Shown: piece after piece, positions 1 to 46,614 of the stretch | Position numbering within the stretch: the first letter of the stretch is position 1 | How the letters are laid out: each line of letters starts with the position of its first letter | Assembly (NCBI GenBank): GCA_016124745.1 | Contig: WGNC01000004.1 | Location: 62,001 to 126,000 of the forward strand | Direction of reading: 5' to 3' | Length of the DNA: 64,000 nt | DNA from: Thiobacillus sp. | GTDB lineage: Bacteria > Pseudomonadota > Gammaproteobacteria > Burkholderiales > Thiobacillaceae | Translations under genes and position numbers: made by a program | Notes under the pieces: generated by a model | Told to the model about the DNA's origin: nothing | The model's database searches: none | The model's input: the letters and a program-made list of their open reading frames with translations, nothing else

Positions 1-541
1 TCTGCATCAGCGAAAACAGACCTTCCTGCATGCGGGCACCGCCACTCGCGGAGAAACAGACAAAGGCGGAGTTCGATTCGATCGCGGATTCCACGCCCAG
101 GACGAAGCGCTCGCCCACCACCGAGCCCATCGACCCGCCCATGAATTTGAATTCGAATGCGGCCACCACTACCGGCACTCGCTTGACGCTGCCGCCGAGC
201 ACCACCAGCGCGTCGGTCTCGGAGGTGCCAGACTGGGCTTCCTTGAGCCGGTCAGGGTATTTCTTGCTGTCCTTGAACTTGAGCGGATCGAGCGGCGTCA
301 CATGGGAGCCGATCTCGTGCTGCCCTTCCGGGTCGAGCAGCATCGCCAGACGCTGCCGTGCACCGATGCGATGATGGTGGCCGCACTTCGGACAGACTTC
401 GAGATTGCTTTCGAGGTCGGCACGGTAGAGCACCTCGTTGCATGCCGGGCACTTGGACCACAGTCCCTCGGGCATGGATTTTTTATCCGCCAGCGCACGT
501 CGCTTGATTTTGGGCGGCAGGATTTTCTGGAACCAACTCAT
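1..541 (-). CDS. accD: Acetyl-CoA carboxylase carboxyltransferase subunit beta (partial, N-terminal part)
   Basis: AccD forms, with AccA, the carboxyltransferase that moves the carboxyl group from biotin to acetyl-CoA to give malonyl-CoA, the first step of fatty acid synthesis. Translating the minus strand from the ATG at 541 gives [13 protein letters not shown], the family's typical start, followed by a four-cysteine zinc ribbon (CPAC at about residue 27 and CPKC further on) and the beginning of the carboxyltransferase domain. The reading frame is open to base 1, so the C-terminal part lies outside the window and the ORF track does not list it. It starts 12 bp after the trpA stop, so it is probably the next gene of the trp transcript. 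The trpA-accD order is usual in Betaproteobacteria. Confidence 0.95.
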
Positions 542-553
542 GGTTTTCTCCCT

Positions 554-1360
554 TTATTTCGACGCCGCATCGACGCCACGGCGCAAGTCCTGCACCAGTG
601 CCTTGACGCGGTTGACGCACCCGCCCTCGGGTGCGGTCTCGATCTCGCTCACGATGCGGCTGCCCACCACCACGGCATCAGCGATACGGGCCACGGCCTC
701 GGCAGTCGCTGCATCGCGGATGCCAAAGCCGACACCGACCGGCAGGCCGCAATGCCTGCGGACCATTTCCAGTTTGCGCGCGACTTCGACCGTATCGAGG
801 TTCGCCGAGCCCGTCACGCCTTTCAGCGACACGTAGTAGATGAACCCGCCGGCGACCGCGGCTACTTGTTCCACCCGCGACTCGGGCGTAGTCGGCGACA
901 GCAGAAAAATCGGATCCAGCCCGGCTGCCTTGAATACATCCGCCACGCCAAGCGATTCCTCGGGGGGAATGTCCACCGTCAGCACGCCATCCACACCGGC
1001 GGCGTGGGCTGCCAGGGCAAACTTCTCGTAACCCATGCGCTCGATCGGATTGGCGTAACCCATCAGCACAACCGGCGTCGTCCGGTTGGTCTTGCGGAAC
1101 TCCGCCGTCATGGCCAGAACGTCCTTGAGACCGACCTTGTTCGCCAGCGCCCTTTCGGAGGCGCGCTGGATCACGGGGCCATCGGCCATCGGATCGGAAA
1201 ACGGCACCCCCAGTTCGATGATGTCCGCCCCCGCTTCGACCAGCGCGTGCATCAGCGGAACTGTCATCCCCTTGCCGGGGTCACCGGCGGTGACGAAGGG
1301 AATCAGGGCTTTCTTGTTGTGCGCTTTCAGCGCAATGAAGGTCTGGCCGATGCGGCTCAT
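554..1360 (-). CDS. trpA: Tryptophan synthase alpha chain
   Basis: TrpA cleaves indole-3-glycerol phosphate to indole and glyceraldehyde 3-phosphate and passes the indole through a tunnel to TrpB. The 268 residues match the usual family length. The catalytic Glu sits in [11 protein letters not shown] (near residue 49) and the catalytic Asp in the adjacent PMADGP motif; the phosphate-binding GFGI loop is also present (VGVGFGIRD). The gene lies 3 bp downstream of the mrr-like gene and just upstream of accD, so trpB and trpA are separated by an inserted nuclease gene instead of being adjacent. The identification is firm. Confidence 0.97.
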
Positions 1361-1363
1361 GAT

Positions 1364-2272
1364 TCAGTCTTCTTCAAAATAATCGGTGTCCAAGCGCTTC
1401 ACCGTATAAACATCTTTGGTTGAAACGCCCAGATCGTGGTCCATCATCAGTTCCGCCAGCATCGGTCCGTCGATCAGGACCACTCGGTGATTCACTTGCG
1501 ACGCATAGTCAGTCGCACCCTTGGAAAAACCTGAACTGGTAATGAACACGCCTTTGTTGGCCTTGTTTCCCGCCAGTGCGCCTACGAATTTCTGGATCTC
1601 AGGACGACCCACATCCGCTTCCCAGCGCTTGGCCTGAATGTAGATCACATCCAGTCCGAGCCGGTCCTCGTTGATGATGCCGTCGATGCCACCGTCACCG
1701 CTTTTTCCGACGACGCGCCCTGCATCTTCCTGCGTGCCGCCATACCCCATCTTCAGCAGCAATTCGACGACCAGCTCTTCAAAGCGTGACGGACTGACAC
1801 TCTTAATCCGATCCAGCAACTCAATAGCGAGTGCTTCGCGCAATTGTTTGTAGCCACCGGCGATAAGCTCGTCTGGTGTTTCCGGATTTACCTGAGCTAA
1901 CTCGATAAGTTTGTTTTCGTCCTTGGGTTCGCCCGCATTGAAATCCACTACCAGGGGAAACCGTTTCAGGTACCTGACATTCAAGGGCTGAGGATTCTCG
2001 TTCAAAACCTGCATGCCGCGAGCGGTAACTCTGTAAACACCGCGACGCAAGTTCTCGATCAACCCCCTTTGCTTAAGATAACTCGTTGCCCAGCCGACAC
2101 GATTATCGAATAGTCTTGCCCCACCGCTGGCAATCTTTATTGAAAGCTCTGCCTCAGTCAGTCCAAACTGCTTAGCCAGTAACGGCAGCAGTTCCTGCTT
2201 GGTATGTTCCTTACCATCAGCGCAGGCTTTCAATAGCGGCAAGAAAACACTTTGAAAATCGGGAATGGCCAT
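1364..2272 (-). CDS. Mrr-family restriction endonuclease-like protein
   Basis: This 302-residue protein has the two-part layout of Mrr. An N-terminal winged-helix-like region (about residues 1-110; ASGGARLFDNRVGWATSYL, then LRRGVYRVTARG) precedes a C-terminal PD-(D/E)xK-type catalytic domain (SRFEELVVELLLKMGY, GDGGIDG, IYIQAKRW). The Asp of GDGGIDG and the QAK triplet are the expected metal-binding and catalytic residues, so the nuclease looks intact. E. coli Mrr cuts methylated DNA; the specificity here is unknown. The ORF track begins 191 codons further upstream inside trpB. I chose the ATG at 2272 because MAIPDFQSVFLPLLKA matches the start of Mrr homologues and lies 2 bp after the trpB stop. 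It sits between trpB and trpA and is probably co-transcribed with them. No methylase partner is visible. Confidence 0.9.
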   Translation of the reverse strand: MAIPDFQSVFLPLLKACADGKEHTKQELLPLLAKQFGLTEAELSIKIASGGARLFDNRVGWATSYLKQRGLIENLRRGVYRVTARGMQVLNENPQPLNVRYLKRFPLVVDFNAGEPKDENKLIELAQVNPETPDELIAGGYKQLREALAIELLDRIKSVSPSRFEELVVELLLKMGYGGTQEDAGRVVGKSGDGGIDGIINEDRLGLDVIYIQAKRWEADVGRPEIQKFVGALAGNKANKGVFITSSGFSKGATDYASQVNHRVVLIDGPMLAELMMDHDLGVSTKDVYTVKRLDTDYFEED

Positions 2273-2274
2273 GT

Positions 2275-3474
2275 TTAAAGTGTGATCCCCGACACCTTCG
2301 CCACCGTGTTGATGTCCTTGTCGCCTCGCCCTGACAGATTGACCAGGATGATCTGCTCTTTGCCCAGGGTGGGCGCGAGTTTCTTGGCATAGGCGACCGC
2401 ATGGCTGGATTCGAGCGCGGGAATGATGCCTTCGAAACGACACAGGTCGTGGAAAGCGGCCATGGCCTCGTCGTCGTCGATGGCGACGTATTCGGCACGC
2501 CCGCTGTCCTTCAGGTAGCTGTGCTCGGGGCCGACGCCAGGATAGTCGAGACCCGCAGAAACCGAATGGGTTTCGATGATCTGGCCGTTCTCGTCCTGCA
2601 TCAGGTAGCTGCGGAAGCCGTGCAAGATGCCAGGTGTGCCGGCCGACAGGGGGGCTGCATGCTTGCCGCTGGCGATGCCTGACCCGCCTGCTTCGACACC
2701 GATCAGGCGCACGCCCTCGTGCGGAATGTAGGGATGGAAGATGCCGATGGCGTTGGAGCCGCCACCGACGCAGGCGATCACTGCATCGGGCTGGCGACCG
2801 GTCAATTCGGGCATCTGGGTGAGGCATTCGCGGCCGATCACGCACTGGAAGTCGCGCACCAGCATGGGATACGGGTGCGGACCTGCCGCGGTGCCGAGGA
2901 TGTAGAAGGTGGATTCGACGTTGGTCACCCAGTCGCGCATCGCCTCGTTGAGTGCATCCTTAAGCGTCTTCGAGCCCGACGCTACCGGCACGACGGTTGC
3001 CCCCAGCAGTTTCATGCGAAAGACGTTGGGCGCCTGGCGTTCGACGTCTTCGGCGCCCATGTAGACCACGCATTCCATGCCGTAGCGTGCGGCCACCGTG
3101 GCCGAGGCGACGCCGTGCTGGCCGGCCCCGGTTTCGGCGATGACGCGCTTCTTGCCCATGCGCCGTGCCAGCAGCGCCTGGCCGATGGTGTTGTTGATCT
3201 TGTGCGCGCCGGTGTGGTTGAGGTCTTCGCGCTTGAGGTAAATCTGCGCGCCGCCATATTGTTCCGAGAGCCGCTTGGCATGGTAGACCGGGCTGGGCCG
3301 GCCGACGTAATGCTTCAGTTCGTATTCAAATTCGGCCACGAAAGCGGGATCCTGGCGCGCCTTGTCATACTCGACACGCAGTTCTTCCAGCGCAGCCATC
3401 AGGGTTTCGGCGACGAAGATGCCGCCGTAGGGGCCGAAATGGCCGCGGGAATCGGGGAGATCAGTCAGCTTCAT
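2275..3474 (-). CDS. trpB: Tryptophan synthase beta chain (TrpB1 type)
   Basis: TrpB condenses indole with serine to make tryptophan, using pyridoxal phosphate. The 399 residues match the classical TrpB1 family (E. coli has 397). The PLP lysine is in HTGAHKINN, and the phosphate-binding loop [10 protein letters not shown] and the GRGDKD motif near the C terminus are present. The ATG at 3474 is preferred to the longer ORF because [18 protein letters not shown] is the typical N terminus and the start overlaps the trpF stop in an ATGA junction, which suggests translational coupling. A second, distantly related TrpB2 gene lies at 18.65 kb. Confidence 0.97.
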
Positions 3475-4091
3475 GATGCTTCTTTCGCGTTCGCAATGAA
3501 TTGCGCAATCTTGTGCGCGTCCTTGATGCCTTTTGCCATTTCGACGCCGGAAGACACGTCTACCGCCCATGGCCTGACCTGCTCAACCGCCTCGGCGACG
3601 TTATCCGGGGTCAGCCCGCCCGACAAAATGACGGCCTTGGGCATCGTCGCCGGGATCAGGCGCCAGTCGAAGCGTTCCCCGGTACCACCGGGCACACCAG
3701 GCACAAACGCGTCGAGCAGCAAACCGCGCGCGTCTTCAAAATCAGCTGCGCATTTTAACAAATCCATGTCCGGACTGACGCGCACTGCCTTGATATAGGG
3801 TCGGCCGTGGCAAGCGCAATCGGCCGCGGTCTCGTCGCCATGGAATTGCAGCAGGTCAAGCGGTACGGCCTTAAGCACGGATTCAATGAAAGCCGGGGCG
3901 GCATTCACGAACAGACCGACCGATTGCACGAAGGGCGGCAGTTTGCGCACCAGCGCGGCTGCGTCCCTGGCTGAAACGTTGCGCGGGCTTTTTTCATAGA
4001 ACACAAAACCCAAGGCATCCGCACCAGCGTCGCAGGCGGCGTGCAGATCCTGTTCCCGGGTGATACCGCAGATTTTTACGCGTACAGCCAT
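3471..4091 (-). CDS. trpF: Phosphoribosylanthranilate isomerase
   Basis: TrpF catalyses the Amadori rearrangement of N-(5-phosphoribosyl)anthranilate in tryptophan synthesis. The 206-residue protein is a standard single-domain TIM barrel. KICGITR at residues 6-12 carries the catalytic Cys, LQFHGDE is the mid-barrel motif, and LSGGL and DVSSGVE form the phosphate-binding end, the latter including the general-acid Asp. It overlaps truA upstream by 16 bp and trpB downstream by 4 bp, so it lies inside a tightly packed transcript. Confidence 0.97.
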
Positions 4092-43159: not shown

Positions 43160-45429
43160 GCCTCACCGCCGGGCGCCAGCACGTCGCGGTTGCCGTTCGA
43201 CTGCATCGACGACACCAGGCCGGCGCGTTCCATGTCCTCGATCATGCGCGCAGCGCGATTGTAGCCGATGCGCAACTGGCGCTGCACCGACGAAATCGAG
43301 GCACGGCGTGACTTCAATACATAGGCCACCGCCTGGTCGTACAGCGGGTCGGCCTCAGCCGCCGCCTCGCCGAATTCGCCGCCCTCGCCTGTCTCTTCGG
43401 GCGATTCGAGCACGCCTTCGATGTATTCGGGTTCGCCCAGCGACTTCAGGTAATCGACCACGCGATGCACCTCGTTGTCCGACACGAAGGCGCCGTGAAC
43501 ACGCTGCGGCAGGCCGCTGCCTGGCGGCAGGTAGAGCATATCGCCCTGCCCCAGCAGGGCTTCGGCGCCCATCTGGTCGAGGATGGTGCGCGAGTCGATC
43601 TTGCTCGATACCTGGAAAGCGATGCGCGTCGGGATGTTGGCCTTGATGAGCCCGGTAATGACGTCGACGGACGGCCGCTGCGTGGCCAGAATCAAGTGTA
43701 TGCCGGCCGCGCGCGCCTTCTGCGCCAGCCGAGCGATGAGTTCCTCGACCTTCTTGCCGACCACCATCATGAGGTCAGCCAACTCGTCGATCATCACCAC
43801 GATCATCGGCATGGGTTCCAGCGGCTCGGGATCGTCCGGGGTCAGACTGAACGGATGCGTCAGCGGCGTGCCGGCTTTTTTGGCATCGCGCACTTTCTGG
43901 TTGTAGCCGGCAAGGTTGCGCACGCCGACCGCCGACAACAGCTTGTAGCGCCGCTCCATTTCGCCGACGCACCAGTTGAGCGCGCTGGCGGCCTGCTTCA
44001 TGTCGGTGACCACCGGCGCCAGCAGATGCGGAATGCCTTCGTAGATCGACAGTTCCAGCATCTTGGGGTCGACCATGATCATGCGCACGGCCGATGGGTC
44101 GGACTTGTACACGAGCGACAGAATCATGGCGTTGACGCCGACCGACTTGCCCGAACCGGTCGTACCCGCGACCAGCAGGTGCGGCATCTTGCCGAGATCC
44201 GCCACGACCGGATTGCCGGCGATGTCCTTGCCCAGCGTGACCGTGAGGGGGCTGACACTGTCGTGATAGGCCTTGGAACCAAGAATCTCGGACAGCCTTA
44301 CGATCTGCCGCTTGGGGTTGGGAATTTCCAGCCCCATGGTGTGTTTGCCGGGGATGGCTTCGACCACGCGTATGCTGATCACCGACAGCGTGCGCGCGAG
44401 GTCCTTGGCCAGGTTGACGATCTGGCTGCCCTTCACCCCCATCGCCGGCTCGATTTCATAGCGCGTGATGACCGGGCCGGGCGAGGCCGACACCACTTTG
44501 ACCTCGACGCCGAACTCGGCGAGCTTGCGCTCGATCATCAGCGAAGTGAATTCCAGCGACTCGGCGCTGGCGGTTTCCACCGCTTCGTCGGCGGGGTCGA
44601 GAAGATGCAACGGCGGCAGCGGCGAATCGGGCATGTCGGAAAACAGGGGCGCCTGCTTTTCGGCGATGGCGCGTGTCGATTGCGGAACCTCTTTCACCAC
44701 GGGTTCGATTCGTATCGGCGGCGCTTCGACGAGCTTTTTCTTCTCCACCGACACTTTCGCCTCACGCTTCTGCAGCGCCACTTCACCCAACTTGCGGTCG
44801 CGATAGGCATGCAAGGTGTTGACTGCCTTCCAGTAACCCCGCTCCACCCATTCTCCCGTTCGTTCTGCCATGCCGAGCCATGACATGCCGGTAAACAGGC
44901 TGAACCCCAGCGCCATCAGCAGCAGCAAAACCAGCGAGCCGCCGGTGAACCCGAGCAGTGCGCCCGCTGCAGCCCCCACGCCGCCCCCGAGCACCCCGCC
45001 GGGTGTATCGGGGAGCGCAAAATCCCAGTGCCAGGCTCGCATCCACTCGAGTCCGGTGCTGGCCAGCAGCAGCAGGCCGAAGCCGCCCAGCCGGTACCAG
45101 TGTTGTCGATCCCCAGCAAGCGGCGTTTCATCCAGATGCCGAAAGATATGGATGACATAGGCTGCCGCCAACACCACCCACCACCAGGACGACACGCCGA
45201 ACAGCATCAGCAGCAGGTCCGACAGCCATGCACCGAAGCGTCCGCCCAGATTGTGTATCGCGCCGCCGTCGCCGGTGGTGCTGAAGCTCGGATCGGCCGC
45301 GTTGTGGGTGATCAGGATCGCCGCCAGCAGCAAAGCGGCAAACCCCACCAGCAGGGCGCGGGCTTCGCGCAGCAGGCGTTGCATGCGAGGTGACAAAGGG
45401 GCCGACGGACGGGAAGCGGGACGCGCCAT
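43156..45429 (-). CDS. ftsK: DNA translocase FtsK
   Basis: FtsK pumps chromosome ends through the septum and activates XerCD at dif. The 757-residue protein has four N-terminal membrane helices (residues about 25-200, including [17 protein letters not shown] and [16 protein letters not shown]), a short linker, the alpha and beta motor domains with Walker A GTTGSGKS near residue 425 and Walker [14 protein letters not shown], and the gamma winged helix ([30 protein letters not shown]). The short linker is of the SpoIIIE/short FtsK type. The ATG at 45429 matches the family; the Shine-Dalgarno is weak. Confidence 0.95.
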
Positions 45430-45621
45430 GGAAACTTTACGAACGGAAGTGCACTGAATTATCCCGCATATCTTAATCGTTATGACTGATCGGGATAAAT
45501 CGCGGATTATCCATTCAGACGCGAGGCGGGGACGCGGGCGGGTTTCATGAAGCGCCTGCTGGACTACATGAAATGAATACCGAGTGGACAGCATGGAAAT
45601 GCCGCCGTCAAGATTGGTTAG

Positions 45622-46614
<993 letters not shown>

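Follow-up and report, generated by a model that had tools for sequence, protein, structure and literature searches.

The DNA analysed in this work, referred to below as the window, is a stretch of 64,000 nucleotides from Thiobacillus sp., corresponding to positions 62001-126000 of contig C37 in a genome of 3.35 Mb that is 97.8% complete and that its nearest relatives place in Thiobacillus. On its minus strand the genes are arranged in the order truA-trpF-trpB-mrr-trpA-accD (Table 1). The preliminary description of this DNA had placed a complete Mrr-like endonuclease gene between trpB and trpA with gaps of 2 and 3 bp, and both the open reading frame and its coordinates were verified.

Table 1. 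Positions of mrr, its domains and the flanking genes in the window
Feature	Position	Strand	Evidence or remark
mrr, type IV (modification-dependent) restriction endonuclease, 302 aa	1364..2272	-	intact frame, Pfam, PADLOC
Mrr_N winged-helix domain, aa 6-92	1997..2257	-	PF14338 1.1e-26; presumed DNA-recognising part
Mrr_cat nuclease domain, aa 156-276, with D197, Q213 and K215 (PD-QxK)	1445..1807	-	PF04471 6.4e-38
Inferred recombination breakpoint, after codon 149, relative to alleles L008/L009	1826	-	MaxChi, fourfold sites, p=0.0005
trpB-mrr seam, 2 bp	2273..2274	-	TA-like pair at the same place in most relatives
mrr-trpA seam, 3 bp	1361..1363	-	mrr 3' end is AGAAGAC, a possible trpA ribosome-binding site
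trpB, flank upstream of mrr	2275..3474	-	PF00291 (PALP)
trpA, flank downstream of mrr	554..1360	-	PF00290 (Trp_syntA)
trpF, 5' of trpB with overlapping start	3471..4091	-	PF00697 (PRAI)
accD, 5' part, 3' of trpA	2..541	-	position and order match other Burkholderiales

The mrr frame starts with ATG, stops with TGA and is intact over its 302 codons. The scores of both domains were far above the Pfam cut-off, and PADLOC assigned nearly the full length of the protein to mREase_IV at 1.8e-86. The PD-QxK signature is intact (GDGGIDG at residues 192-198 and QAK at 213-215) and is conserved throughout the clade of Mrr proteins found at this junction. By its domain order and catalytic residues the gene is an Mrr-type (type IV) nuclease, whose product would be expected to cut DNA; no other Mrr_cat gene turned up in this genome. 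A search of NCBIfam with the window Mrr gave no match, and a PDB sequence search that paired residues 23-55 with TAL effector repeats was dismissed as an artefact of low-complexity sequence in which no stretch was significant alone. The GC content of mrr is 0.52 (GC3 0.59), compared with 0.63-0.65 (GC3 0.80) for trpB and trpA. The dN/dS of the window mrr against L002-L012 is 0.04-0.13, similar to that of trpB and trpA within the same genus; therefore, the gene is kept by purifying selection. Since homologues were found at the same junction in 17 independent genomes, its position does not stem from misassembly.

When GTDB genomes were scanned with the window Mrr, 380 candidate relatives were obtained, and 80 loci were compared. 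The best 17 of these 80 loci, which share 60-90% identity with the window Mrr and come from Thiobacillus, Sulfuricellaceae, Gallionellaceae and other Betaproteobacteria, all lie at the trp junction: trpB precedes mrr, trpA follows it, or both are present if the contig extends far enough. None of the next 63 lies there. One more junction Mrr, with 57% identity, came from the survey described below (G297). In a quick tree of 82 Mrr proteins, the 19 Mrrs of the trpB-trpA junction fall on one side of a branch with a support of 91, apart from the 63 others, and the support is 100 for the 18 junction Mrrs without G297. One member, L018, is labelled "other" in the tree because its contig begins inside mrr; it also adjoins trpA.

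The distance between trpB and trpA was measured in about 226 Burkholderiales genomes, a sample leaning partly towards genomes with a high-scoring TrpB, and inserts of at least 300 bp, counted by hand from tables, were found in 29 of the 226. Mrr genes occupy eight of these junctions (G000, G002, G003, G007, G010, G387, G297 and G155), and PF01555 DNA methylase genes occupy six, in genomes of two families. Toxin-antitoxin (TA)-like pairs or their remnants were found in 17 genomes; they include HicA/HicB (in one example HicA scored 24.9, just under the Pfam cut-off of 27), BrnT with a partner, DUF4258/DUF2283 and DUF4160/DUF2442, of which the last two are pairs that we take to be toxin-antitoxin pairs. 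Uma2 and ABM inserts were seen in single cases, and ParE-like and TumE/HVO_A0114 pairs were seen as well among the loci of the Mrr relatives. The preliminary description had proposed this survey as a check on its claim that the junction is a recurring place for restriction-modification genes, and had named a junction holding no other such genes as one of the results that would count against it; the Mrr genes (8/226) and methylase genes (6/226) bear the claim out. Its account was incomplete, as the TA-like pairs, which it did not foresee, are the commonest inserts and the usual companions of mrr. Genes of other kinds also occur at the junction: an FMN_bind_2 (PaiB-like) gene, neither defence nor TA, lies between trpB and trpA in two genomes of family f35 (L119 and L120, in G284 and G396, respectively), and in G105 a T5orf172/GIY-YIG-like protein is encoded beside a DUF4258/DUF2283 pair (L123:830-1471).

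Three junctions were compared across a common set of 80 genomes: inserts of 300 bp or longer were present in 10 of 73 trpB-trpA junctions, 0 of 68 trpF-trpB junctions and 3 of 76 trpA-accD junctions; those at trpB-trpA come from five families and those at trpA-accD from one. Among Gammaproteobacteria outside Burkholderiales there were no inserts in 66 junctions, the largest trpB-trpA gap being 244 bp. Fisher's tests gave p=0.0015 against trpF-trpB, 0.044 against trpA-accD and 0.0016 against the genomes outside the order, values that are optimistic because the genomes are related. The trpB-trpA seam is an insertion hotspot, in that variable inserts lie between its core genes at a frequency above that of the neighbouring junctions. 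Presence and absence also vary within the genus, as 7 filled and 10 empty Thiobacillus sites were retrieved. Larger separations were noticed elsewhere: trpA and accD lie about 18.7 kb apart in G340 of family f8 (C35, about 461600 to 480308), whose relatives G268 and G074 have inserts of 0.7-0.8 kb at trpA-accD, and in G062 of family f44 a distance of about 28 kb separates trpA from trpB (C1, 305944 and 334366).

For 14 loci in which mrr and trpB are both complete, the trees of the two proteins were compared. The TrpB tree groups the seven Thiobacillus sequences at 100/99, whereas forcing Thiobacillus monophyly on Mrr costs 101 log-likelihood units and is rejected (p-AU 7.2e-61). The divergence values agree with this. 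Between the window and the Sulfuricellaceae loci L004-L006, dN is 0.09-0.10 for mrr, 0.13-0.16 for trpB and 0.25-0.28 for trpA; between the window and the congeneric L008 and L016, it is 0.14 and 0.35 for mrr, and 0.04 and 0.06 for trpB, respectively. Because TrpB supports the monophyly that Mrr rejects, mrr crosses family borders and yet stays at trpB-trpA. The locus carries none of the marks of a mobile element (integrase, transposase or att repeats): no integrase or transposase was found among the junction ORFs, no att repeats were seen, and the only repeat was the additional copy of the trpB 3' end that accompanies the TA pair in about six loci. The simplest reading of how mrr moves would be that it recombines via the conserved trp flanks. 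Transfer driven by the flanks is expected to raise the identity of trpB and trpA next to mrr; no clear rise was observed there, so the homologous-flank route is a candidate mechanism, and the start of trpA, although little diverged, is so in empty sites too, which may reflect constraint.

A TA-like pair or its remnant lies directly 5' of mrr in at least 12 relatives, and in the window, L003 and L009 mrr is the sole insert. In L002, L007, L008, L010, L011 and L016, which have a TA pair ahead of mrr, 44-80 nt of the trpB 3' end are repeated directly before mrr; the repeat is identical at 64 of 67 positions in L002, and the repeats exceed shuffled controls. This arrangement fits the insertion of a donor piece, trpB tail plus TA pair, that entered by homology at one end and was joined at or close to AAGGAC at the other, and recombination between the trpB-tail repeats may be a route by which the pair is lost. 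The window has a single trpB tail and no TA pair. In L007 (3271-5746), mrr lies between two TA-like pairs, ParE-like upstream and TumE/HVO_A0114 downstream, and the trpB tail is duplicated.

Traces of lost mrr genes were also found. In G055 a HicB gene is followed by ATGACTATTCCCGATTTCCAGACCCTGTTGCTGCCG joined straight to TACTTCATTGAAGAATAA and then by trpA; ATGACTATTCCCGATTTCCAGACCCTGTTGCTGCCG corresponds to the mrr-like start MTIPDFQTLLLP, and TACTTCATTGAAGAATAA to the mrr-like end YFIEE. Read from its sequence, this junction is a deletion scar that keeps the first 12 and the last 6 codons of mrr. G018 and G006 likely carry mrr 3' remnants. In addition, AGAAGAC lies exactly 6 nt 5' of the trpA start in 8 of 10 empty Thiobacillus junctions, just as it does at the end of mrr, and was found at that position in none of 20 junctions from genomes outside Thiobacillus. 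Since all Mrrs share a similar C-terminus, DYFxEE/D, these empty junctions are probably old mrr scars that retained the trpA ribosome-binding site; alternatively, AGAAGAC is a native Thiobacillus leader that mrr joined through microhomology.

The two halves of the window Mrr have diverged to different degrees from L008 and L009. Over codons 1-150 the amino acid identity is 60-61% and the synonymous difference 0.76-0.78; over codons 151-302 the values are 96-97% and 0.42-0.45, respectively, compared with a synonymous difference of 0.54 for trpB. MaxChi analysis of fourfold sites, at which the amino acids are unchanged, placed the break just before the start of Mrr_cat (Table 1); in some alleles the divergent half comprises Mrr_N and its linker. 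Synonymous sites are not expected to track protein constraint; as the break is visible at such sites, recombination is favoured. In trpB, MaxChi showed mild heterogeneity for other pairs (p about 0.006), and for L010 and L012 the signal was weaker or absent; only the mrr signal of L008 and L009 (61% versus 96% amino acid identity) was therefore relied on. The sharp break between the recognition and nuclease halves suggests that specificity domains have been swapped in some alleles. In L013 (around 4600) the C-terminal half is identical to that of the window and the N-terminal half is divergent, and a run of N lies inside mrr; this locus was dropped as evidence of recombination because the run is at the join and the sequence may be a scaffolding chimera.

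Taking these results together, we consider it probable that mrr encodes a working type IV Mrr whose lineage entered the Burkholderiales trpB-trpA seam once and now spreads among strains and families by recombination at the seam, with repeated loss. Mrr genes are widespread and mobile, as the number of candidate relatives illustrates, and the low GC content points to a foreign origin, which would suit a one-off horizontal insertion of a common gene at a meaningless position. The survey largely refutes that reading, with more inserts at this seam than at both neighbouring junctions, and all 17 of the closest homologues lie at the same seam and form one clade across several families; we regard it as very improbable. 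The TA-like pairs immediately upstream of mrr in at least 12 relatives, and on both sides of it in L007, could instead point to one composite defence system in which the pair guards the nuclease and from which the window copy has lost its pair. Five unrelated kinds of pair accompany the same Mrr, however, TA pairs stand alone at the seam in other families as mrr does in the window, L003 and L009, and the trpB tail repeat between pair and nuclease suggests separate acquisition, which leaves a composite system unlikely.

The strong purifying selection and the location in a metabolic operon would also suit an Mrr co-opted for host regulation (SOS, stress or trp metabolism) rather than restriction, and the E. 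coli enzyme sets off the SOS response under pressure (PMC12707154). This alternative is very unlikely, as at least 10 of 18 Thiobacillus genomes are without mrr, the scars show that it is dispensable, and exchange across families and divergence of the recognition half suit defence better. Finally, Mrr and the trp-junction methylase use the same seam, in eight and six cases and never together, as if they were allelic halves of one epigenetic conflict in which Mrr alleles exclude the methylase and its GTWWAC mark. Because the two genes were found in different families, this exclusion is confounded by ancestry; we give this conflict hardly any credence. A more elaborate form of the seam-spreading explanation is possible though doubtful: trpB-trpA would be a locus-locked defence slot, and the one Mrr lineage there would hold on to its nuclease half while recombination exchanges the recognition half, as a type IV analogue of type I specificity switching. 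The gene would pass between families via the conserved trp flanks, and TA pairs would be added at the trpB 3' end by recombination on one side only.

On the preferred explanation, that of a single Mrr lineage recombining at trpB-trpA, mrr would carry neither a promoter nor a mobility gene of its own. The tight stop-start gaps of 2-3 bp suggest transcription with the trp genes and translational coupling; a scan of the coding strand, a weak kind of test, found no convincing internal promoter or terminator. mrr would then be part of the trp transcript, and its coupled translation would keep both trp genes expressed, with Mrr produced in modest amounts along with TrpB and TrpA; a deep coupling of mrr to trp metabolism may exist. 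From what is known of Mrr biology, selection of modified foreign DNA would fall to the winged-helix half and cleavage to the PD-QxK half. As TA-like pairs and an orphan methylase also use the seam, it would provide a biosynthetic operon with a small slot for defence and addiction genes.

The preliminary description had asked how a nuclease with no visible methylase is kept non-toxic. No methylase adjoins mrr, whose neighbours are trpB and trpA, so the adjacent cognate methylase of a type II restriction-modification system is lacking; type IV Mrr enzymes, however, have no cognate methylase (PMC12707154), and since they need no such partner the question of toxicity would largely dissolve. By analogy, the window Mrr would be harmless through its need for modified DNA and not through a partner, so long as it ignores the methylation marks of its own host. 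The genome carries other DNA methylases, whose marks Mrr would have to ignore, among them a type II methyltransferase (L152), a second PF01555 gene (L153), a PF00145 gene (L154) and three PF02384 genes. The first of these, on another contig than mrr (C31, around 44978-46000), adjoins a type II restriction endonuclease resembling the PaeR7I/XhoI group and forms with it a complete restriction-modification system.

As in Mrr of E. coli K-12 (EcoKMrr), a protein of about 300 aa without a partner methylase, a winged-helix N-terminus is fused to an Mrr_cat domain with PD-QxK (PMC12707154). The E. coli enzyme acts on DNA sensitised by 6mA or 5mC in some contexts and may be kept inactive in a tetrameric state (PMC12707154); its gene is flanked by yjiA and yjiN in the immigration control region (PMC12707154), whereas the window lineage is confined to trpB-trpA and embedded in an operon. 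The preliminary description was right that several Betaproteobacteria carry a methylase gene at this spot: the PF01555 methylase of the survey matches BCAM0992 of Burkholderia cenocepacia, an orphan m6A methylase (GTWWAC) encoded between trpB and trpA (PMC7364216). BCAM0992 shares with mrr the seam, the partnerless relation to DNA modification and, presumably, the trp operon (PMC7364216), but it is an unrelated protein, a methylase, for which the phenotype reported is gene regulation and motility. Split trp operons of the form F-B-X-A, in which a gene X from outside the trp pathway separates trpB from trpA, were described in 2008 in all known Burkholderia and some Flavobacterium (PMC2395257), and BCAM0992 is the X of B. 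cenocepacia (PMC7364216). X was then called unknown, possibly a trp helper, whereas here its identity varies among TA-like pairs, Mrr and methylase. Like the core defence hotspots of E. coli (the immigration control region) and Pseudomonas aeruginosa, the junction has core genes that stay fixed and defence genes between them that change (PMC12707154, PMC10250203). Unlike them, it lies within one operon, between the subunit genes of one enzyme, with no mobility genes seen, and its apparently promoterless inserts of one to three genes are far smaller, about 0.5-1.6 kb. The literature searched contained no report of Mrr or TA pairs at trpB-trpA, of its hotspot status or of the exchange across families; a gonococcal HicAB paper was set aside as a precedent, as trpB there is only a laboratory insertion site.

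What is new is the site and its dynamics; the enzyme itself is an ordinary Mrr. Defence genes are usually placed in islands or mobile elements. At trpB-trpA, the seam of a housekeeping operon offers a very small slot, apparently with no promoter of its own, which is filled variously with nuclease, methylase and TA genes, and the "X" gene of Burkholderia thereby becomes one filling of a wider site. Natural Mrr alleles that differ mainly in the recognition half would offer a direct means to map the poorly known recognition of type IV enzymes.
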